A stretch of DNA of 64,000 bases from Dacryopinax spathularia (Eukaryota; Basidiomycota; Dacrymycetes; Dacrymycetales; Dacrymycetaceae), in the NCBI GenBank assembly GCA_037974965.1, contig JBBPFI010000018.1, positions 434,001 to 498,000 of the forward strand, given 5' to 3'. The notes beneath the pieces are model-generated. The model did no database searches, was not told where the DNA came from, and was given only the letters and a program-made list of their open reading frames with translations. Below, in pieces: positions 50,874 through 62,197 of the stretch (position 1 is its first letter; each line of letters begins with the position of its first letter). Made by a program: the position numbers and the translations under genes.

Positions 50874-51448
50874 CGTCGGGCCCTCGTCTTCCGTTGTGCC
50901 ATACTATCCGCCGCGTCCCCCAGCACTGCGAACGAATCCGGGATGACCGAGCGATATGAAAAACCCAAGTATATGCGCCCCGATCCAGTGTTTATGATCA
51001 CCTCAACCAACCCTTCCACTTCCAACTCAGCTCAAGAGCACGACCGACCCGACCTTATCATACGCGTACAATCAATTGCCTCTCCCTCCTTCTCCCACCC
51101 ATTCCTCCGCATGCGTCTGGGGCGATGGTGAGGAGCAGAAAGAGCAGGACGACCGACCGAGATCGACGACACCCGACCCCTTTACTCTAGCATATACAAT
51201 TATTTAACTTCCCTTCCCCGCCCCTCTCACCGTTCGCTGGTGAATGTAAGTGGGTGGTATGCTGTGAAATTGTACATGTAGAGAGTAGGAATGAGAAATC
51301 AAGCCAGTGAGTATACGAACTGCGTCTGATCTGCGCGCTCGCTGCGGGAATGCATTTCCGGAGATACGTATGTGTTGCGGGGTGCGTTCCGAAGGTGGAA
51401 GTGTTGCACCATGTTTGGCTTGTCCCTCTGCACTAGGGTCCCGATACA
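50874..51448. other. Intergenic trailer, no gene
   Basis: About 575 bases after the membrane-protein gene, with an ATATGCGCC motif at 50970-50978. No gene is seen. Confidence 0.4.
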
Positions 51449-51617
51449 CACTGACTGTCAGTGCGTGGAATAAGTGAAGCGAGTGCTGGTAATCAGTGCA
51501 GAAGGTACTGTGTTCTCAGTGCAACCATACACTGAGAATCAGTGCAAAATGAACGATTTCAGTGTACCACATCACTGATAGTCAGTAGTCGAGACACTGA
51601 ACATCATTGTGTTTTGC
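51449..51617. repeat. CACTGA/TCAGTG hairpin cluster, left of retrotransposon
   Basis: About eight CACTGA or TCAGTG half-sites in 160 bases, several forming perfect inverted repeats. CACTGAC/GTCAGTG is at 51449-51463, TTCTCAGTG/CACTGAGAA at 51513-51538, CACTGA/TCAGTG at 51530-51544, and ACTGA/TCAGT at 51574-51586. Matching hairpins occur on the far side of the retrotransposon, so this may be one end of an older repeat split by the insertion. Confidence 0.65.
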
Positions 51618-51622
51618 GCTGC

Positions 51623-51852
51623 TGAAAGAGCTTTAATGCTCTTTCGCACGTAAGTACACTGAACCAGTGTAATTAGGTAGTCCTAATACAATGGTCGTGT
51701 ACAAACGAGTGTACAGTAAAAAATGGGCTACGCCCAACTACTACAACGAGCGACTAAGCCGATCCTTAAGGGAGGCTGTGTTACCTAAGAAGGTAAGGAA
51801 ATGTCCCTTAAAGGGAAATCGATGGATAGCCCGATAAGGGCATATCCTTACA
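51623..51852 (-). repeat. 3' LTR (230 bp)
   Basis: Identical by eye to 60419-60648. It contains nine consecutive non-overlapping perfect inverted repeats, at 51624-51645, 51655-51671, 51672-51687, 51699-51714, 51724-51736, 51764-51771, 51781-51796, 51804-51816 and 51829-51841. Confidence 0.95.
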
Positions 51853-51865
51853 CTCTTCCCCCTTC
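51853..51865 (-). other. Polypurine tract of the retrotransposon
   Basis: On the minus strand, 13 purines in a row (GAAGGGGGAAGAG) directly abut the 3' LTR. This is the usual position of the plus-strand DNA primer. Confidence 0.8.
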
Positions 51866-51896
51866 AAAAGAGGAGAAGTATATCGTACTAAGTACG

Positions 51897-54119
51897 TTAA
51901 TACTCGAGATGGATCTCTTCATCCATTCGAGCATAGCCGTCGTCGTCATACGGCTCTTCCTCGCGAGCGGGGGAGGACCCACGGTGTCTGTACACCGGAT
52001 CGTTCATGATGCTGGCCACGACGGCCTCCATGGATCCTCCTGCACGGGAGTTCGAGGGACCAGCCACGATTGGTCCTACCAATGCGGTTTGCGCGTTGGC
52101 GGCCGCCTGTCGCTCGTCCTCGACGGTAAGACTGTACCAGTCATTTTCCTTAAAGGAAGCGAGATTCGCCAAGTCCTCGTCGATAGAGGAGACTGGCGCT
52201 TTGCCCTTGGCAAACGTAGAGCCACGGGCTTTCTTCTCGGCCATTTTAACGGCGGAAGGATATGGCTCTGTCCACAGAGTAACGCCTCGACGTAGAGGTC
52301 TCTTTTCCGTGCCGCACGGATCCATCCAATGGACTGTGGAGGTTTTCCACCGAGCAAAGTATTGCTCCAAGCGTTTTCCCGTTTCCACGGGCACCCCAGA
52401 CTCTGCCAGGACGGCACAAATCCGCTGGGCGGAGAATACCAGATCTCCGTCTGGTTTATCGGGATCTTCAGGCGCTAAGGCCTTCTTGAAGTTCGGCTTA
52501 GCCGGGGTTGACGCTGGTGTTAAACCATACCCAAACAGGGCGCGTTCGTAGCCCCCAGGCTCGCCGAAGATCTGCTCACGCAGTATTGTCATGAACTGCG
52601 TACATTGACTGCGAGTCCATCCGTCTCTAGACGTAATAGGGCGATTACGCTCCAACCAGTACCAGAGGTCGAGGTCTGGTTGGAAGTATCGCCCTTCGGG
52701 TGAACGCCTGACGGCGAGGGGAGCGGCCTTGTGAGGATTGCCATCCTCGTCTTCCCGGTTGCGGGACTTCAAGTCAAGATACTTGTAGTAAATCGGCGAG
52801 TTTTTCCCTTCCGGGTGAGTGGCGAAATGCCGATCTGCTTCAGCGAGTAACTGTTTCCAGTGTTCGCCGTTCGCCAGCCAGGCGTTGTAGAGGTCGGTCG
52901 CATGATGGATCGACCCCCAAGGCATCATGCCTCTTTCCCAGAAGGGAGCGTTCTGTGCGCCCTTTCGAGGGGGCCTGAACAGGTTTTTCGGCCTCGCCGT
53001 CTTTGCACTAGGTGCAGTAGGGTTTTGAGCCCTGGATTTACCCGCAGCAGCCCGTGCTTGTGGGGTAAAGATCTCCGGAGGGGGAGTTTCCTCTGGAAGA
53101 GGAGCGTCTTGATATACCCCCGGAGAGGGCATTTGTCTCCCGGAGGGAGGGTTTTCAGCCTTGCGCTTGCCTTGCGCGACAGCGCTATAGGAGAGGGGCT
53201 GAGCCTCTGCAGGACCGGAGGAGTCCACGTCCATTCGATCGAGTAGATCGTTTGATGTAGCTTGAGGCGGGGGGGCGTCTCGAAGCTCGTAGTATTTATC
53301 GCGATACTCATCGCGCTCTCTCTTCATAGAGTGATACCTATCTTCGAAATAGGAATGATTCTCCTGGGCGGCGGAGAGCTTTTCGCGTGTCAAGGCGAGT
53401 TCCTTTTGAAGGTCGAGTAACTGCGTATGCAGTGAATTGGTTCTCTCAGTTTGCACGTTGAGTGACTCCTGAGTTTTCGCGAGGCTCTCCGCGTTAGAGT
53501 TCAGTAACTGAACTAAAGCCGCACGTTCGTTGCGATCAACGTCGTGGACTGAGGATAACTCCTTACGGAGACGAGTCAACGATGCCTGATGGATCGTATT
53601 CTCCCTTTGGAGACGATCCACCTCGGCATGATGGCCATCGTTTTCATCGCGCAAGCGCTCAATCTCCCGACGGAGAAATCGTACCTCGTCGCGGAGGTCT
53701 TCCCTTCCCAGGTCGTCGACATGTGTCCTCGACCGTTCCTCCGGATCGAGTCGCACATTGGCGTTCCAAACCCAATTGTCGTACCCGTTGTCGGGGTAGG
53801 AATTGGGTGGATTGCCCTGTGGGTCGACAGCCATAGGCTGGACTGAATCTGCCGTGGCAGGAGCGACTGCCGCTAGGGCAGAGATAGACGGCTGGGGAGC
53901 CGAAGATGTCGTTCCGGACTTCGTCGCCGACGGTCCGGATTGTGGCGGAGCCACCATTGTTTGCGGCATTCCCGCTGGTGCAGGAAGTACCGCTGAAGCG
54001 GATGTGGCTTCAATAGCCAGTGTAGTAAAAGCTTTTTTGAAGCTTTTATAATTCGCCTTTAAGGCGTATAACTGTACTCCACCGGGGGAGGTGGGAGTAC
54101 GGGATAGAGAAGGCGTCAA
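51897..54119 (-). CDS. Retrotransposon ORF2, 740 aa, coiled-coil protein of unknown function
   Basis: Same strand as gag-pol and placed between it and the 3' LTR, where retroviruses carry env. It has no signal peptide or membrane helix, so it does not look like an envelope. The N-terminal ~135 residues are Ala/Pro/Ser-rich. Residues about 135-280 are a strong coiled coil (DEVRFLRREIERLRDEN.., LHTQLLDLQKELALTREKL). A disordered Pro-rich linker with a basic patch (RPKNLFRPPRKG) follows. Then comes a compact Trp/Tyr-rich region (WGSIHHATDLYNAWLANGEHWK, YFQPDLDLWYWLERNRP, QCTQFMTILREQIFGE), and the C-terminus is acidic (EEEPYDDDGYARMDEEIHLEY). No family is recognised. It could be an extra structural or nucleic-acid-binding protein. 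Expression may need a separate transcript, splicing or re-initiation. Confidence 0.85.
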   Translation of the reverse strand: MTPSLSRTPTSPGGVQLYALKANYKSFKKAFTTLAIEATSASAVLPAPAGMPQTMVAPPQSGPSATKSGTTSSAPQPSISALAAVAPATADSVQPMAVDPQGNPPNSYPDNGYDNWVWNANVRLDPEERSRTHVDDLGREDLRDEVRFLRREIERLRDENDGHHAEVDRLQRENTIHQASLTRLRKELSSVHDVDRNERAALVQLLNSNAESLAKTQESLNVQTERTNSLHTQLLDLQKELALTREKLSAAQENHSYFEDRYHSMKRERDEYRDKYYELRDAPPPQATSNDLLDRMDVDSSGPAEAQPLSYSAVAQGKRKAENPPSGRQMPSPGVYQDAPLPEETPPPEIFTPQARAAAGKSRAQNPTAPSAKTARPKNLFRPPRKGAQNAPFWERGMMPWGSIHHATDLYNAWLANGEHWKQLLAEADRHFATHPEGKNSPIYYKYLDLKSRNREDEDGNPHKAAPLAVRRSPEGRYFQPDLDLWYWLERNRPITSRDGWTRSQCTQFMTILREQIFGEPGGYERALFGYGLTPASTPAKPNFKKALAPEDPDKPDGDLVFSAQRICAVLAESGVPVETGKRLEQYFARWKTSTVHWMDPCGTEKRPLRRGVTLWTEPYPSAVKMAEKKARGSTFAKGKAPVSSIDEDLANLASFKENDWYSLTVEDERQAAANAQTALVGPIVAGPSNSRAGGSMEAVVASIMNDPVYRHRGSSPAREEEPYDDDGYARMDEEIHLEY

Positions 54120-54366
54120 GCCTTGGTCGAGTCCCTTATTTCAAGGGAGATTGCCTCCGGATAACGGAGGCAGATCGGTCCTTTGCTTAGGACCCTTGAC
54201 GACGCGCCACGCGCGTGAATTCCTGGTTTGCCAGGCACGTGATACACGTATATGCGCGTCTAACGCGAATGACTTCTTTTCATCCGTGCCAAGCACGTAA
54301 TGTCTATGCGCGCTAAGCGCGAATGTCTTCTCCTCATGCGCTTAGCGCAAAAGGAGAGTTGCATAC
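54120..54366 (-). other. Spacer between gag-pol and ORF2, rich in GCGC palindromes
   Basis: 247 bases with several short palindromic segments such as GCGCGCTAAGCGCG and GCGCTTAGCGC, plus repeated CGAATG(T/A)CTTCT units. It lies between the two ORFs, so it may contain a promoter, a re-initiation or splice signal, or a structural RNA element for ORF2. Confidence 0.5.
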
Positions 54367-57300
54367 TCATGTATGCCTCTTCCCCTCTCCCTTTTTAGGG
54401 AGTTCATCTGGGTCTTGGACCCCTTGCAAAGCAAGATACTCGTCCAACTGGACGAGCCTATCGGCTTTGTCTAAGGACTCCCACGTCCTATCACCGTCTG
54501 ACCAGACGAAGTGGAAGAACAACTTCCCCCGCTGCCAGCGGTGATCGTCGATCAAGTCGACATATTGTTCCCCTTCGGGAGCGTCGCCAAAGACAACATT
54601 GGCGTCCCGGTCAGGGAAAACCAGTTCGTCGTTGGCGACGTACGGCCGTAACAGGCTGGTGTGGAAAACGGGGTGAATCCGCCGTTTGACCATACTCTCT
54701 GGCAAGGCCAGTTGACAGTTATCTGTCTTCGTCACCTTGGTGACTAAAAATGGGCCGATATAGCGTGGCATTAGCTTTGCTATACGGCCTTTTGGCACAG
54801 CCAAATTCCTCGTAGAGAGGTATACTTTATCGCCCACATCATAATGTGGCGAGCCTTGTCTACGCCGGTTGGCGTGAATGGCCTGGTTGACCCGGGATTC
54901 AATGATCGCATCCGTAGCGATGCGTACATTGTACCTTGCATTCTGCAAGAAGCGGTCGACACCGCGATACTCAGATTCTGAGTGTTGTACCAGTCTCATA
55001 AGAGACGGTACATGTCCATACACGAGTTCGAAGGGTGAAAACCCAGTCGAAACACCTTTACTCGCGTTTATCGCGTATTCTACCATAGGTAGACGGTTGT
55101 ACCAGTCAGATTGGTCATCCGCAACTACGGATCGCAAGATCTGAGTTACGGATCGTACCATCCGCTCGGTAATGCCATCCGTTTGAGGATGAAACGCGGT
55201 CGACATCAAAAGTGTCGTACCCATCTGCTTATGCAGGTCTTGCCAGAACGCGGCAGTAAACTTCGTGTCTCTATCAGAGACTATGCTCTTAGGCATACCG
55301 TGCAGTCGCACTATTTCCCTTAGGAAAATCGCAGCTATATCTGCTGACGAAGAAGTCGTCATCACCGGCAAGAGGTGGACCATCGACGTCAGTCGACATA
55401 CTACTATCAATAGATAGTCATATCCGCCTGAGAGCGGCAAAGGACCCATGAAGTCCATCGCTACTGATTCCCAAGGGGATGTAGCTAACTGCAGAGAATG
55501 CAGAAGTCCATACGGCTTGGCCGTAGAGTCCTTAGATGTTTGACATCTATGGCAAGACAAGCAATACGTCTTGACTTGTCTTGTCATTCCTGGCCACCAG
55601 TATTGGTGTCGCAGGTACTCTACGGTCTTGACCGATCCATAGTGTCCTACGGACACATGAGCTTGCTCTATGAGCACAGATCGTATAGATCTATCTTTGT
55701 AGTTTCCCTCAGGGACGTACAGTACGTTCGTACTGTCGGCGGTCTTCAACTTGAAGACGCCATCCTCTAAGAGGAACATGGACGAGCCGGGCAAGATAGC
55801 TTGGAGCTTCTTGGCGAACCGATCTGCCGAATAGGCATGTCTAATAGCTCGCAAGAGCTCCAGGCTATCTAGCGGCCTGTACCGTGTTACCTCTGTATAG
55901 GTATTCGCCTGATCAGGCGCTTGTGGGGCCGGGGAATCCGGTATTGCCGGTTCAACGGCCTTTGGTTCATGATGAACCTTTCCACCCTTTGAGGTAGATT
56001 TACCCGCGTTAAGCAGTGCGCTTTCCCGTGCTCTGGGCTCGCGCAAGTCCACTGCTTTACGGGTGGTATTTATAACCTCTACGGGTTGAGGCCTCTCACG
56101 AGGCGGTACCTTGGTACCTCTAAATCTGGTCGTCATTTGACGTACAGCTGCCTCAGGCAGTAATTCAGCCATTCGGGCTAAGGATAAGGTATCCCCATCC
56201 TTATCTATCCGCACATCCGCGGTAACTGTGTCTCGGACACTGGTTAATCTGGACATCCAGTCCGCTAGTACGTTGTTGCACCCTGCAACGTGCATCCATT
56301 CCTTTATGGAAAACCGTTGCAAGTATTCTTGCCAACGTACTACGCGAGGACTCGCGAGTGCTCCCTTAGTGAGGAGAAATCTTAAAGGCTCATGATCAGA
56401 GCATATAACTATCGGTTTCCCGATTAGTTTATCCTCCCATTTGAGGAGAGCCTCGAGCACCGCGAGGAATTCTTGTTGGTATGTCGGGTACGACATTTGC
56501 GCGTCTGTAAAACGCCTGGAATGAAATCCAGCTGGACGAACTTTGTCCCAACTCGGTCCTTGACCGTAATAGCATCCAACCCCACTGGTGGATGCGTCTA
56601 CGACAACGTAGATGTTCTGGTCGCAGCCAGGATCAATGGGCTTCAGCACTGGATAGCGCGTAGCCAGATCTATGATCTTTTCAAAGCACCATTTATGGTG
56701 AGGGGTCACAACAAACTTGTTGTGCTGGTGCGTAAGCGCGGACAGCGAACTGCTGTATTTTGCCACGTCCGGCAGATATGGGGCCAAATAGGTCACCATA
56801 CCAAGGAACCGTTGGACGGCTTTTATATCCTGAGGGAATTCCGCTTTGCGGATAACTGACATCTTGTCATCATCGGCATATATGCCGTCATCGGTAATCC
56901 GATGTCCCAAGCATTCAATGCTAGGGGAGATTAAATCTACTTTGTCCTCGGACAAGTAGAGTTTCTGCTCTCGCAGAATTCCGAATACAATTCGGAGATT
57001 GTTTATCGCCTCGGCGAGAGTGGATCCCACGACGAAGATGTCGTCGAGGTAGCATACAGCTGACCTCATCCACTGTTTGGACAATATGTCCATCATCATC
57101 CTTTGGAAGGAAGCGGGGAGATTACAATCCCCTTGCTGGCCGACATGGCTAACGAAAGTCCCAAAGGGGTTTCGAAAAGCTGTCTTCCAGACATCTTCGG
57201 GTTCCACCCGCTGCATTTCAAATGCATTCCTTAGATCCAACTTGGATCGAAAAGGATGTTCGGCAACCCATTGCCGTATTTCGTCCTGATCGGGCATCGG

Positions 57301-60255
57301 GGTTACGTCCCGCACAGTATTCGAGTTTCGTTCTCGACAATCTACGGTTGTGCGTAGTTTCCCATTACGTTTGGTGACGCAGAGCATGGGCAGGGCATTG
57401 GGCGCTTGTGCGCTCTCCCACCAGCCTGCCTCAACATAACGTTGGGTTTTCTCGTGAAGTTCCTCACGATGAATGTCCGGGACGGTCGGACGGCGAGTCC
57501 TATAGACTGCCTTATCATCGATCAAGTTGATACGATGATTGATTTTCCTCAGGGGAGGAAGGACAGGGGGAATGGGACCCATCAAGTCCTTGATCTCGTC
57601 TCTTAAGACGATACGGATTTCCTCCAGGGCTTCTTCCTGGTAGGAATTAAGTCTTTCCCTATCAGGGACGCTTCCCGCCGTGGCTTTAGCCGTAGAGGCT
57701 CGCATGGCGAGAAGTTTATTGTTCGGCTTTGCCGATTTTCTAGGTGTTTTCACCTCGGACTTCTTGTCCGGTTTTGGCAAAGCCAAATTTGGGGAAATGG
57801 AAGCGCCCGAGGCGAACCATTTGCCATCTCTTCCTCCGAGGAGTATTCCCTTGCGGAACAGGTCTATCATGACCCTAAATCTTGTGCCAAAAGGCAATCC
57901 AAGTATGACTTGGTACTTGTCAGTGTTGACAATATCAAAGTAGTGTTGTACTACTTGATTGTCAATATTGACATCGGCTCTAACGCCGTATTGAATAATC
58001 GTGCGACTGCCACGACTCATTTGCTGTAAAGCAACAGGGCATTCCAGCTTTTCAAAAGCTAAGCCATGAGCTCTGACGAAGTCAGCATTGATAGTGTCGA
58101 TCTCGGCACCACTATCAATCAGCGCTAGGGCTGGATATCCATTAATGCTAATATAGCATTCAATGGGGGCTGATGCCTCGCCGTCTCTGGCGGAATTTGT
58201 CTTTTTAAGACGTGCCGTACTATCGTGTTTCCACGTAGACGGCTTTACTCCTTTGTCAGGAGTGAATGACGGGCCAGCCTTCGCGGCACGAACTACTACT
58301 GGCCCGATGGGCTGTAGAGTCATGACGCGTACGCTTGCCTGTACGTACTCATCTTCCCCTTCGGGGAATTCGTCTTCTCCAGACGCTTCGTATTCCTCTC
58401 CAGAGGCAGGATGATCGGATACGGGACTCTCCCCGCTATGATCTTCATGATCTCCTTCATCCGAAGGAGTTTGGGCGGAGCCCGAGGATCCTCCATGGAG
58501 AATCTGACCGACACCTCCGTCGTCGAGATACTGATCTCCATCGATGGGATCAGCGCCCGCTACGCGTATTCCCCTCTTATTGGGGCAATTATTGGCCCAA
58601 TGGCCGGTTCTCCCACAGGAGAAGCAAGTGCTCTCTTTCGAGGGCCTGCTATCCTTCTTTTCAGAAGGTTTAAATGCCTGGTTAACAGGCCTAGTAAATC
58701 CTGACCTCTGACGGTCATTCCCACTCGGGCGAGGAGGGATGTTAACCGGCTTGGCCGGAGTACGGACTGTAGTCCGAGTTTGGGTCGCTGTAAAGCGAAC
58801 ATTCTCCTGTTTAGGAGCACGATGAGGGTATGCCTGGGACGGGCCAGCTGACGCATTATCATGCGGTCTCGCCTTATTGGCGTTAATCTCTCTAGATAGG
58901 GCTTGAGCCCTTTCTACCTCAATAGAGCGAGCATATAGCTCCTCAAAGAGGTGGGTATCTAGATTATACCCGCTTTCTAGGACCTTAGTCCTAATTCCCT
59001 CTCGGAGGGCTAATAAAAATCTACGTCTGACGTAGTATGCGCCAGGGCGCTCATGCATCCGTCCAAGGATATTGTTGAGCTTGTCCTTAAGGGCCTCAAC
59101 CGTCATACTTCCCTGGGACAGGGATTCGAAAGCAGTGTATGCTTTATGAGTCTCCTCCGCGGAGAAGAACCGATAGTACATTTCCCAAATGACATCGGAA
59201 AATGACCAATCGGTCCGGGGAACATCCCCCAGCTCAATATTCGCTTCAAACCAGCGACTTGCTTCACCAGTGAGGTATTGCCCCATGGTGTTGATTTGCC
59301 ATTCGCCGTATCCGGCGCCGCTGGCTCCTACGAGCCGAAAAGCTCTGACTAGGAGAGCAAGCCATTCGACAAACTTGTCGATATCCGATTCCCCACTGTA
59401 GGGTTCCGGGAATCTAGGCTTTAAGCCTATACGCGATGGAATCGCTTGTAGAGTTGGCTCTGAGGCAGCCTGAACCCAATGGGTAATCCTCGTATGAGGA
59501 GTTTCTGGATCCAGGGTCGGAGCACCCAGATCAGCTCTATCCCTCATCATAGGGAAAAAACTTTCATGGGCATTGGGAGCCCTTGATCTCCCTCCGGGAG
59601 TAACACGATTTCTCCTTGCCCAAGGAGTTTCGTATCTTTCCCTGAAATGGGAAGTATGGGGTGTCGTTACCCCTTGGCGTCGTTCGGTCCTCCCTACGGG
59701 AGTCTGTTCCCTATTGGGATCATTAGCCTCATAGGCTGGTCTCGGTTCTTCCCTCGGAGCAGGGATATGTGTTTCCCCCACAGTAGGTGGGGGATTGTAA
59801 TTACGCGCCTCGGCGCGAAGTTCCGCGGACGCGTACCTAGAACGCGCTCCGTACTCATGGGCTAAGTCCATTTGTAAACGGGCGACTTCCGTCGCAAATC
59901 TGACCAGTAACGATCTATCCGGGAACCTGTGCAGGAGTCTCGTATAATCGTTGGAGATCCGCCACAACCATTGTGCGTCTTCGCGCATATTGGCCATAAC
60001 GGTCGCTGGGTCTAACGTGGCTACATCTGGGCGCGACCCATTCTCCATTACAGGAGATCCTGCTTGTACAGCAGTTTCAACTCTGGCTCCTTCCGGAGCA
60101 TCTCCTAGTAAGGAGCCAGATGGAGAGCGACTATTCGCCGACTCCACCTCTACGGCGCTAGGCCGAGTCTCCCCCATTGGGGAGCTTGGTATCCCATGCG
60201 GGAATGCGCGTTCCGCGCTAGTCCCCGGCACTCTAGGTGTCGAGGGTTGAGCCAT
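54367..60255 (-). CDS. Retrotransposon gag-pol polyprotein, 1962 aa
   Basis: One continuous frame. Gag covers about residues 1-530, with a capsid-like helical part near FRLVGASGAGYGEWQINTMGQYLTGEASRWFE. A CCHC knuckle (CFSCGRTGHWANNC) lies near residue 547. Aspartic protease (ALIDSGAEIDTINADF) is near 715. Reverse transcriptase runs from about 900, with the YLDDIFVVG catalytic box near 1072. RNase H (YVVVDASTSGVGCYYG) is near 1218. Integrase has an HHCC zinc domain near 1538 (GHYGSVKTVEYLRHQYWWPG..CLSCHRCQ) and the catalytic D,D,E at MDFMGPLP, SDRDTKF and TDGITERM. After these come GPFLVTKV and HPVFHTSLLRPY. The C-terminus (about 1900-1950, FVWSDGDRTWESLDKADRL) is chromodomain-like. Gag and pol share one frame, as in several fungal Ty3 elements. 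Confidence 0.95.
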   Translation of the reverse strand: MAQPSTPRVPGTSAERAFPHGIPSSPMGETRPSAVEVESANSRSPSGSLLGDAPEGARVETAVQAGSPVMENGSRPDVATLDPATVMANMREDAQWLWRISNDYTRLLHRFPDRSLLVRFATEVARLQMDLAHEYGARSRYASAELRAEARNYNPPPTVGETHIPAPREEPRPAYEANDPNREQTPVGRTERRQGVTTPHTSHFRERYETPWARRNRVTPGGRSRAPNAHESFFPMMRDRADLGAPTLDPETPHTRITHWVQAASEPTLQAIPSRIGLKPRFPEPYSGESDIDKFVEWLALLVRAFRLVGASGAGYGEWQINTMGQYLTGEASRWFEANIELGDVPRTDWSFSDVIWEMYYRFFSAEETHKAYTAFESLSQGSMTVEALKDKLNNILGRMHERPGAYYVRRRFLLALREGIRTKVLESGYNLDTHLFEELYARSIEVERAQALSREINANKARPHDNASAGPSQAYPHRAPKQENVRFTATQTRTTVRTPAKPVNIPPRPSGNDRQRSGFTRPVNQAFKPSEKKDSRPSKESTCFSCGRTGHWANNCPNKRGIRVAGADPIDGDQYLDDGGVGQILHGGSSGSAQTPSDEGDHEDHSGESPVSDHPASGEEYEASGEDEFPEGEDEYVQASVRVMTLQPIGPVVVRAAKAGPSFTPDKGVKPSTWKHDSTARLKKTNSARDGEASAPIECYISINGYPALALIDSGAEIDTINADFVRAHGLAFEKLECPVALQQMSRGSRTIIQYGVRADVNIDNQVVQHYFDIVNTDKYQVILGLPFGTRFRVMIDLFRKGILLGGRDGKWFASGASISPNLALPKPDKKSEVKTPRKSAKPNNKLLAMRASTAKATAGSVPDRERLNSYQEEALEEIRIVLRDEIKDLMGPIPPVLPPLRKINHRINLIDDKAVYRTRRPTVPDIHREELHEKTQRYVEAGWWESAQAPNALPMLCVTKRNGKLRTTVDCRERNSNTVRDVTPMPDQDEIRQWVAEHPFRSKLDLRNAFEMQRVEPEDVWKTAFRNPFGTFVSHVGQQGDCNLPASFQRMMMDILSKQWMRSAVCYLDDIFVVGSTLAEAINNLRIVFGILREQKLYLSEDKVDLISPSIECLGHRITDDGIYADDDKMSVIRKAEFPQDIKAVQRFLGMVTYLAPYLPDVAKYSSSLSALTHQHNKFVVTPHHKWCFEKIIDLATRYPVLKPIDPGCDQNIYVVVDASTSGVGCYYGQGPSWDKVRPAGFHSRRFTDAQMSYPTYQQEFLAVLEALLKWEDKLIGKPIVICSDHEPLRFLLTKGALASPRVVRWQEYLQRFSIKEWMHVAGCNNVLADWMSRLTSVRDTVTADVRIDKDGDTLSLARMAELLPEAAVRQMTTRFRGTKVPPRERPQPVEVINTTRKAVDLREPRARESALLNAGKSTSKGGKVHHEPKAVEPAIPDSPAPQAPDQANTYTEVTRYRPLDSLELLRAIRHAYSADRFAKKLQAILPGSSMFLLEDGVFKLKTADSTNVLYVPEGNYKDRSIRSVLIEQAHVSVGHYGSVKTVEYLRHQYWWPGMTRQVKTYCLSCHRCQTSKDSTAKPYGLLHSLQLATSPWESVAMDFMGPLPLSGGYDYLLIVVCRLTSMVHLLPVMTTSSSADIAAIFLREIVRLHGMPKSIVSDRDTKFTAAFWQDLHKQMGTTLLMSTAFHPQTDGITERMVRSVTQILRSVVADDQSDWYNRLPMVEYAINASKGVSTGFSPFELVYGHVPSLMRLVQHSESEYRGVDRFLQNARYNVRIATDAIIESRVNQAIHANRRRQGSPHYDVGDKVYLSTRNLAVPKGRIAKLMPRYIGPFLVTKVTKTDNCQLALPESMVKRRIHPVFHTSLLRPYVANDELVFPDRDANVVFGDAPEGEQYVDLIDDHRWQRGKLFFHFVWSDGDRTWESLDKADRLVQLDEYLALQGVQDPDELPKKGEGKRHT

Positions 60256-60418
60256 CGCTGTACGCGAAGGCGATTCGGCCGTCGGCCGTGAAGATAAATT
60301 GTCCGCCCCGAAAGGGGCAATGGACTATGCCTTAAAGGCAATATGTTCCCAGCTTTCTGGGTAGGACTTTCCTAATAAAAATCGGAGCGAAGCTCCCACA
60401 CCGACGAGTGTAAAAAAG
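60256..60418 (-). other. Retrotransposon 5' leader / primer-binding region
   Basis: 163 bases between the 5' LTR and the gag start. The bases just inside the LTR read CTTTTTTACACTCGTC on the element strand and do not begin with the TGG usual for a tRNA primer site. A similar TACACTCGT occurs within the LTR in the same orientation. The priming mechanism is unclear. Confidence 0.5.
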
Positions 60419-60648
60419 TGAAAGAGCTTTAATGCTCTTTCGCACGTAAGTACACTGAACCAGTGTAATTAGGTAGTCCTAATACAATGGTCGTGTACAA
60501 ACGAGTGTACAGTAAAAAATGGGCTACGCCCAACTACTACAACGAGCGACTAAGCCGATCCTTAAGGGAGGCTGTGTTACCTAAGAAGGTAAGGAAATGT
60601 CCCTTAAAGGGAAATCGATGGATAGCCCGATAAGGGCATATCCTTACA
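60419..60648 (-). repeat. 5' LTR (230 bp)
   Basis: Upstream LTR of the minus-strand element, identical by eye to 51623-51852 and followed at 60649-60653 by the GCTGC target duplication. Confidence 0.95.
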
Positions 60649-61160
60649 GCTGCAATGTAGTCAGCGCTCAGAACACTTATTGCTGCAAACAATCCATTAT
60701 TTACGTGCTAATAACCCATACTACAATATATGTAAGCAAGTTAACTTAGATATATATTCTAAGTGCCTTAAAATCACGACGATGCGCTAATCTTGCTCTG
60801 AAACTTCTTGATGCGAGAATGGCGCGCATCTATATGCAATGTCAGCTGTAAACATTGAGTCACACATGGAATGTGCGCACCAGGTTCCCTCGCAGTGAAC
60901 ACTCTAATTCTATTATGATCATGAGCCCAGATTAAGCAGATATATGCGCATATACGTACCTTTGTACCGGGAAAAGTGGTGGTTGTGGAAAGGGAAGACG
61001 GCGCGGCATGAACCCTTTGATCATGACTTAGCCATACTTTTGGGTGCACACTGATCCACCTACAAATGCCTCACGACGCTCAAATTGGGCAATCAGTGCC
61101 GTACGCACGGAGACACTGACAGTCAGCGATGAACTCGCTGATAGTCAGTGACGCGAGGAA
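60649..61160. repeat. AT-rich, hairpin-bearing flank right of retrotransposon
   Basis: From the target duplication to about 60780 the DNA is AT-rich. An ATATATGCGCATATAC motif is at 60940-60955. At 61092-61160 it again shows CACTGA/CAGTG half-sites and inverted repeats: CTGAC/GTCAG at 61116-61126 and CAGCGA/TCGCTG at 61124-61140. This resembles the left flank and suggests the remains of one interrupted element. Confidence 0.5.
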
Positions 61161-62197
61161 CTCCAGTGCTGGGGCGGGAGAGCGATCAAGAGCTTGGGTC
61201 TGCCGGGGCTTCTCGGCTTCTGCTGAGTCAGACGAGCGGTTGGCCGATACTGGGAAGATCGAAGATCCCTTCTGAGAGTCGGAGTGAATGGGGAACAACC
61301 ACGATCGATACTTCATCCATAGCATAAGCGTGATATAACAGCGCTGAACAGGGACTATCTTGCTTACTCGCCCTTGATAGAAACCTCGTCCCACACACCG
61401 AGGCCGGCTCTCGATCGAGCAAACCCACCCCCTTCCGTTCCAGTGCCCAAGCGCAACTACGGACATTCACTCGCCCTCGAGTCACCTGACCTCCCTCTCG
61501 CATACGAACTGCATTCAAATGCAATCCCCTAGCATACAGAGTCAGGTGCGGCTCTCAGCCAACAGGCAGCTCAGGCTGGAACGCAATTCAATATAACCGG
61601 GTCCCTGAAGCCGGGCCGTCCCCAAAATTCAGGTGCACGGCGGAGCCCCAGGGTCTCAGCTGAGAACCCTTCGCAAACTTACGCCCAGACGTGGACCGAC
61701 CGCAAGAGCCAGGCAAAGGGCGCATCATAAGCCAGCGGGTGTCATCCGCTTCCTCCTGTCAAAGTGCAGAGGCGAGTGGTGGACGGGCGATCGGACGTCA
61801 CCTGCTGCCGGTAGGGGCCGGTTATTCAGTACGCGCGTGCGCCCCCCCTTTTTACCCCGCTTTCGTCGCCTTTGCTCCGGAGAAGACGAGCTTGGGCTTG
61901 TGAACGCGTTGGGCTGAAAGGCGACCGATTGGGTGGCTCGGTGGATGGTCGGTTATTCACGCAGACCTACGACGAGCGGTTGAAGACTTGAGCTTGACTT
62001 TACACCCCCAACCACTTGTCCCCTGTTCCTTCTGTGTCGACGACGACCAGTACTCCTCTTTCTGATCTACGGTGCATCGCCCATCCCGGATATCAGAGCA
62101 GCGTCGCTGTCTGCTTCCTACCCCTCGCTCATCTACCACCACCACTCGCCCGTCCAACCTACGAACTTGCGCAAGTGAAAGACAGTAGACTGTCAAG
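61161..62197. other. Intergenic, promoter of acyl-CoA synthetase
   Basis: About 1 kb without a supported gene. The last 250 bases are a pyrimidine-rich leader (TTCTGTGTCGACGACGACC.. to ATG 62198), typical for a well-expressed fungal gene. Confidence 0.4.

Follow-up and report, generated by a model that had tools for sequence, protein, structure and literature searches.

Hundreds of small hairpins in a clade of Ty3/gypsy retrotransposons of Dacryopinax spathularia: a candidate genome-scale ordered structure

The window considered here is a stretch of 64,000 nucleotides from the basidiomycete Dacryopinax spathularia (contig JBBPFI010000018.1, positions 434,001 to 498,000). It carries on its minus strand a complete Ty3/gypsy retrotransposon, designated family A (Table 1). 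The element is bounded by direct long terminal repeats (LTRs) with TG...CA ends and by a target-site duplication, and its pol domains succeed one another in the order protease, reverse transcriptase (RT), RNase H and integrase (Pfam positions 681-808, 961-1120, 1213-1315, and 1521-1690). Pfam matches above cut-off in gag-pol comprise a CCHC knuckle, protease, RT, RNase H, an integrase zinc domain, and a Tf2-1-type SH3 domain. The match to the integrase core (31.9 bits) is slightly below its cut-off of 32.6, the zinc domain being well above its own, and a capsid match also falls below cut-off. The Pfam scan of the element returned no RNA-dependent RNA polymerase (RdRP), and an Rfam scan of positions 51000-61200 at the gathering threshold gave zero matches. 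A search of the genome for the LTR retrieved just the two LTRs of this element, so that family A is single-copy by this measure.

Table 1. Features of the retrotransposon in the window. Stems are perfect inverted repeats with arms of at least 5 and loops of 3-8; expected counts come from 30 dinucleotide shuffles of each part or from 100 shuffles preserving protein, codons, and dinucleotides.
Feature	Positions	Strand	Stems	Expected (dinucleotide)	Expected (codon)	Remarks
Target-site duplication GCTGC, left copy	51618..51622	.				Read directly from the sequence
3' LTR (element orientation)	51623..51852	-	9	0.8		230 bp, TG...CA; 8 of the stems non-overlapping
Purine-rich tract adjoining the 3' LTR	51853..51865	-				Probable polypurine tract, from its position
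ORF2	51897..54119	-	50	12.1	15.9±3.6	740 aa from TTG (putative start)
Spacer between gag-pol and ORF2	54120..54366	-	10	1.2		
gag-pol	54367..60255	-	171	29.1	38.4±5.9	Single open frame, 1962 aa
Nine-hairpin run in pol	57545..57787	-				Named in the original prediction
5' leader	60256..60418	-	6	0.7		
CTTTTTTACAC immediately following the 5' LTR	60408..60418	-				Probable primer-binding site, from its position
5' LTR	60419..60648	-				230 bp, same sequence as the 3' LTR
Target-site duplication GCTGC, right copy	60649..60653	.				Read directly from the sequence

A search of the 29.2-Mb genome with gag-pol returned at least 43 matches. Among them are two sister families, represented by two copies (B) and five copies (C), at 49-69% protein identity and ~66-72% identity in alignable coding DNA. 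Elements of the A-B-C group are 9.0-9.4 kb long. A tree was built from 26 pol sequences, namely those of the three families, of five control elements, and of 18 of the 120 database matches listed. Families A, B, and C come out as a single clade (support 1.00). The controls group in a separate, long-branched clade beside A-B-C, a placement with a weak support of 0.47. Six distant gypsy loci, L038-L043, represent three lineages (L038/L043; L039; L040-L042, the last nearly identical in the tree). Basidiomycota Ty3/gypsy elements (Trametes, Phanerochaete, Mycena, Tilletia, and others), known here by their proteins alone, share the domain order and a homologous pol, with 41-49% identity among the 120 of 412 matches listed. 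A search of viral contigs for relatives returned none.

The three families have in common the TTTTTTAC sequence after the 5' LTR (one copy examined per family), the post-LTR sequence being CTTTTTTACAC in families A and B and TTTTTTTACGC in family C. CTTTTTTACAC does not start with TGG, and neither post-LTR sequence looks complementary to the 3' end of a tRNA. A TTTTTTAC-like sequence also occurs within the LTR of the window element. Outside the element, the left flank (51501-51617) is rich in CACTG/CAGTG motifs in both orientations and is possibly a remnant of another mobile element.

The second frame, ORF2, is also present in all three families. It evolves very fast, with 30-31% identity between A and B and no match between A and C. 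Database searches with the ORF2 protein found no relative, and the Pfam search gave nothing above cut-off, with sub-threshold matches of coiled-coil type only, at ~residues 120-280. Three distinct pol/ORF2 junctions are observed across the three sister families. In the window family, the two ORFs are ~250 bases apart. In family B, the two frames share a few bases around ATGA (L032 6488-6494, L031 6424-6430). In family C (L033, L035), a single frame runs through the gag-protease part, pol, and ORF2, interrupted by two TGA codons (L033 3081-3083 and 6687-6689), with equivalent sites in L034, L035, and L036. The context of both codons is identical across the four copies compared, the second reading TGACTA, which we take to be a leaky-stop context. 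Judging from this arrangement, pol and ORF2 of family C may be translated through readthrough of the stop codons.

The window element harbors a large excess of small hairpins. With stems defined as in Table 1 (and below, unless stated), 258 are found in the whole element, against 45.5±5.9 in 10 dinucleotide shuffles, i.e., 5.7-fold. The original prediction that the pattern crosses LTR, gag, pol, and ORF2 is borne out, and the leader and the spacer are enriched as well. It had also named counts within the range of shuffles preserving codons and dinucleotides as a refutation; 100 of these shuffles, which also preserve the protein, reached at most 53 stems in gag-pol and 26 in ORF2, and the observed 171 and 50 are thus outside their range. 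Chance, base composition, or codon use, contradicted by both types of shuffle and by the folding energies given below, is hardly credible as an explanation. Host sequence does differ from the element: 26 two-kb tiles of the window outside it are at background, their observed counts being 0.24-1.38 times those expected from 5 shuffles per tile.

Sixteen individual hairpins of the original prediction were checked by coordinate; all are present, and the seven with specified arms are perfect. In the nine of the run in pol, arms measure 4-6 bases and loops 2-5. The nine hairpins announced for the LTR correspond to its largest non-overlapping set at arms of at least 4 and loops of 0-6, for which 200 shuffles give a mean of 3.9 and a maximum of 8; at arms of at least 5 and loops of 3-8, this set counts eight, against 1.07 (maximum 3) in shuffles. 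The suggested density of one hairpin per 26 bases, a tenfold excess, describes the LTR (11-fold) and the spacer (8-fold) but is too high for the whole element, in which loops of 3-6 yield 226 stems, one per 40 bases, against 33 expected (6.9-fold). Hairpins are indeed dense, but "tiled end to end" was too strong an expression: the 240 non-overlapping hairpins take up 40% of its length, leaving gaps with a median of 11 bases and reaching up to 176. At the scale of 21-mers, 73% touch a stem of at least 5 bp in the element, versus 17% in the shuffle and 13% in host DNA.

The hairpins are mostly of 5-7 bp. Enrichment depends on loop length, being 9.1 at 3 bases, 7.7 at 4, 3.6-4.7 at 5-7, and 1.8 at 8; it is mostly gone by 9, with values of 0.5-3.0 for loops of 9 to 40. 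Stems are G+C-rich and loops A/T-rich, and C-G closes the loop more often than G-C (278 vs 155 in three elements). The loop-length peak, the C-G closing excess, and the A/T-rich loops are as expected for real hairpins. With respect to the reading frame, the phase in which wobble positions face each other is the rarest in gag-pol of family A (46 of 171 stems, vs 57 and 68 for the other phases), although it is the commonest in shuffles; in family C, the three phases hold 56, 54, and 68 stems, vs 18.9, 12.7, and 17.9 in shuffles. This pattern fits stems built largely through synonymous choice.

All seven sister loci are hairpin-rich, with 22.0-26.5 stems/kb over the whole fetched loci. In contrast, the six loci L038-L043 contain 4.4-6.7 stems/kb, and fifteen shorter distant loci (L016-L030), whose lineages overlap with these, 3.1-7.6. 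Within this genome, the hairpin trait belongs to one clade: it is shared by the two sister families, and the three distant lineages are without it or nearly so. L039 (1035-7209) is mildly raised, with 49 stems vs 27.9±4.7, and L038/L043 are ~2-fold up at arms of at least 6, not at 5 or more; the trait is therefore perhaps not all-or-none.

Predicted folding was quantified as the mean folding-energy excess (MFED) of 350-base fragments over 8 dinucleotide shuffles. The MFED of the window element is 28.3%, with 25 of 25 fragments positive, and that of its antisense strand is somewhat lower (24.6%). One B copy reaches 22.3% and two C copies 22.0% and 20.4%. For reference, the same computation yields 30.2% for the RNA phage MS2, and 4.3% and 5.0% for the 16S and 23S rRNAs of E. 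coli. Host DNA stays at 0.3%, and five control gypsy loci range from 0.4 to 5.0%, L039 having the 5.0%. The window element is thus predicted to fold about as strongly as a small RNA phage genome. Published values (PMC7642675) are ~15% for SARS-CoV-2 and, as the record among vertebrate RNA viruses, 23.4%, a maximum that the four copies (20-28%) approach or exceed, the shuffling methods being similar but non-identical. Strong folding is accompanied by a low content of unpaired G+C: per 100 nt, 13.2 in A (shuffled 16.4), 13.5 in B (15.6), 15.3 in C (16.9), and 11.7 in MS2 (15.4), the control elements staying within 1 of their own shuffles. In a study on Q-beta replicase (PMC6913131), the combination of "fewer unpaired GC" and strong folding is the design that lowers the formation of double-stranded RNA (dsRNA) in the course of replication.

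The folding gain is about the same on both strands. Over codon shuffles, it amounts on the sense/antisense strands to -9.29/-9.33 kcal per 120 nt in A, -6.78/-7.18 in B, and -8.63/-8.32 in C (sense minus antisense 0.05±0.65, 0.40±0.66, and -0.31±0.59), and to -8.21/-8.13 kcal, with a wide error, in MS2. Furthermore, G-U pairs are not preferred over A-C. In stems of 5 with one mismatch, G-U/A-C enrichments are 1.31/1.47 in A, 1.31/1.41 in B, 1.53/1.69 in C, and 1.41/1.71 in MS2, versus 1.51/1.04 in E. coli rRNA, a contrast between rRNA and the elements of only ~2 standard errors. One-sided changes between families lead to G-U about as often as to A-C (e.g., 83 and 74). The elements hence behave like MS2 and unlike rRNA, being two-strand symmetric with no preference for G-U. 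MS2 copies itself through complementary RNA and has no DNA phase. The absence of a G-U preference was considered as evidence against RNA structure and rejected, since MS2, a known folded RNA, behaves alike; with rRNA as the contrasting control, "two-strand symmetric" is the description retained. The G-U/A-C ratio also has causes besides folding, as three of four control loci favor G-U (1.22-1.85, with A-C at 0.70-0.84) without any stem excess.

These measurements bear on which nucleic acid the hairpins serve. The main rival to selection on both strands is that the sense genomic RNA alone is served, by making this ~9 kb molecule more compact, through Gag binding and packaging, or by stabilizing it. 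The clade elements are long and retain a CCHC knuckle, and MS2, which packages its RNA, reaches a similar MFED, all of which speak for it; however, a sense-RNA function would be expected to accept G-U more readily than A-C, which is the case in rRNA and not in these elements; both strands gain about equally, and the 7.3-kb controls L040-L042 manage without such structure. We therefore regard it as rather doubtful. Another proposal is that the hairpins matter in single-stranded DNA, i.e., the minus strand or both cDNA strands, during reverse transcription, protection, or strand transfer. The sense strand leans weakly towards A-C over G-U, equivalent to G-T on the minus strand, and DNA hairpins favor C-G closing and loops of 3-4, which suits those observed. 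As this lean is small and is displayed by MS2 as well, a DNA function appears unlikely.

Between families, hairpin positions turn over while their density stays. In a codon alignment of gag-pol with one copy per family (159-178 hairpins each), 23 (A-B), 18 (A-C), and 23 (B-C) hairpins have the same exact center, i.e., 10-15%, vs 2.1-2.5 in shifted controls; with one base of slack, 31, 30, and 32 centers are shared, vs 5-21 with shifts. Part of this sharing is plain conservation, since the amino-acid identity is higher around the shared hairpins (69-84%, vs 53-60%). Stem pairs changed on both sides remain Watson-Crick in 57/136, 87/192, 39/128, 72/186, 77/207, and 81/189 cases in six comparisons (30-45%), vs an average fraction of 0.23-0.25 in shifted controls, five of the six comparisons exceeding every shift. 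A plain compensatory change is found at the LTR end, where the stem GAAAGAGC/GCTCTTTC of A corresponds to GAAAGGGC/GCCCTTTC in B.

Constraint on stems was also assessed among close copies. Of the 224 gag-pol differences between C9 and C5, 160 are at third codon positions; close-copy changes, falling mainly there, probably arose for the most part in replicating lineages. Raw counts, in which stem sites are ~0.3-0.6 times as variable as others, were discarded as a measure: only one copy of each pair had served to define the stems, and much of the effect is ascertainment. A smaller effect is left with the union of both copies' stems, tested against simulated nulls and against a null preserving phase and clustering (200 draws). 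The stem/rest substitution ratio is 0.92 for C9/C5 (null 1.10±0.16; 17 of 200 draws as low), 0.58 for C16/C4 (1.14±0.21; 0), 0.77 for C16/C3 (1.20±0.30; 10), 0.90 for C9/C3 (1.22±0.27; 23), 0.79 for C4/C5 (1.05±0.13; 3), and 1.10 for C11/C2 (1.27±0.22; 49). Stems thus change modestly less than the null: all six pairs, which share copies and are non-independent, lie below the null mean, two of them clearly. The private changes of four recent copies display no constraint (27 losses vs 30 in the null), as expected after insertion, but they lend no support either.

A mutational process could in principle yield the same pattern with no function at all, for example if intrastrand template switching by the clade's reverse transcriptase makes and repairs inverted repeats. 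The trait is limited to one clade, strand-symmetric, mostly Watson-Crick, and alike in coding and non-coding parts, as such a process would have it, and a 17-nt tandem duplication in copy C3 doubled one hairpin. Among close copies, however, the original suggestion of a replication process creating inverted repeats is unsupported. Variants in near-identical copies fall into 468 clusters, 331 of them in family C and 137 in family B. The 22 clusters with at least three sites, which include the C3 duplication and two small indels, show by eye no inverted-copy signature of template switching, no arm being replaced by the reverse complement of its partner. Stem gains by private substitutions in C5, whose changes are unpolarized, show no clear excess (22 vs a null of 15.9±3.5), and those of the other four copies sum to 7 vs 7.8. 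Double Watson-Crick changes, 0-2 per close-copy comparison, are too few for frequent arm-to-arm copying, which is thereby disfavored. Finally, in gag-pol of family A, enrichment is lowest for the wobble-to-wobble phase, the one that offers synonymous pairing the least scope. A purely mutational origin is accordingly quite unlikely. It is very probable, instead, that folding is selected in the A-B-C clade. The original idea of a nucleic-acid property, in the form of an ordered genomic RNA structure, finds support in the excess in every part, which persists over codon-preserving shuffles, the turnover at kept density, the compensatory signal, and the somewhat slower change of stems.

Among known systems, the genome-scale ordered RNA structure (GORS) of RNA viruses is a close parallel. 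As described in the available part of PMC3950689, GORS comprises hundreds of local stem-loops through coding sequence, a folding energy far above that of shuffles, positions and pairings poorly conserved among relatives at a kept level, and less variable paired sites. The clade likewise displays folding energies above order-shuffled controls, turnover of positions at a kept level, and paired sites that are modestly less variable. It differs in its very small hairpins, in the about equal gain of both strands, and in the carrier, an LTR retrotransposon that passes through DNA and not a positive-strand RNA virus; because of this carrier, the structure works like GORS outside the set in which GORS was described. 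RNA phages (MS2 as computed here; Q-beta as far as the accessible text of PMC6913131 goes) resemble the elements in MFED (30% in MS2 vs 28%) and low unpaired G+C, and MS2 also in its similar gain on both strands and its lack of G-U preference; that both strands fold alike without preference for G-U is a feature of RNA-phage type. Perfect short stems are nevertheless 2.4 times denser in the element than in MS2 (28.6 vs 12.0 per kb), and phages copy RNA to RNA, with two RNA strands. Viroids are tightly folded, which has been argued to let them escape RISC (PMC3185485), the same benefit as proposed below; they are small, circular, and non-coding, unlike a coding 9-kb element with local hairpins.

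Among LTR retrotransposons, yeast Ty1 and Ty3 have, judging by titles (PMC9503155, PMC5454406, PMC4974528), been studied for the folding of their genomic RNA and its packaging signals. They are likewise cases of LTR retrotransposon RNA with functional structure. To our knowledge, LTR retrotransposons have no RNA-to-RNA copying step.

A mechanism can be proposed on this basis. Weak selection would act on every stretch of the nucleic acid, largely via synonymous and non-coding sites, and would maintain the hairpins, hundreds in number and each small and local, in all five parts of the element, so that the sense RNA and its complement would both stay folded. Folded sense, antisense, and small guide RNAs would anneal poorly, resulting in less dsRNA and in less RNA cut by a Dicer/Argonaute/RdRP pathway. 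The host genome does contain matches to Piwi, RdRP, and Dicer-dimer domains, i.e., candidate silencing genes identified by sequence. On the same contig as the element are two RdRP-like genes (PF05183, the type active in RNA silencing), apparently next to each other, ~19-24 kb to the left of the window (C18:410394-415482).

Strand symmetry leans towards RNA silencing over packaging. Control gypsy elements inhabit the same genome without such structure, which counts against an RNAi benefit, and it is possible, though we would not wager on it, that the benefit lies in poor annealing of sense, antisense, and guide RNAs, with less dsRNA and less host cutting. The more specific idea that the genomes of the clade have come to be designed like that of an RNA phage, with both strands folded, few unpaired G and C, no annealing of sense with antisense RNA or of RNA with guide RNA, and an RNAi counter-defense residing in every part of the nucleic acid and not in a protein, is tentative. 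Taken as a whole, from one genome and three families, the evidence leaves evenly poised the full statement that the clade keeps a genome-scale ordered structure, with both strands folded by selection and avoidance of annealing as the likely benefit.

Genome-scale RNA structure has been described for RNA viruses. For LTR retrotransposons, a title-level search, outside which most subscription papers lie, turned up no such report. As far as we know, its purpose is still an open question in virology. If the present reading is true, hairpin-rich and hairpin-poor gypsy elements residing in the same genome, together with Dicer/Argonaute/RdRP-type matches, would constitute a natural experiment on what such structure is for.
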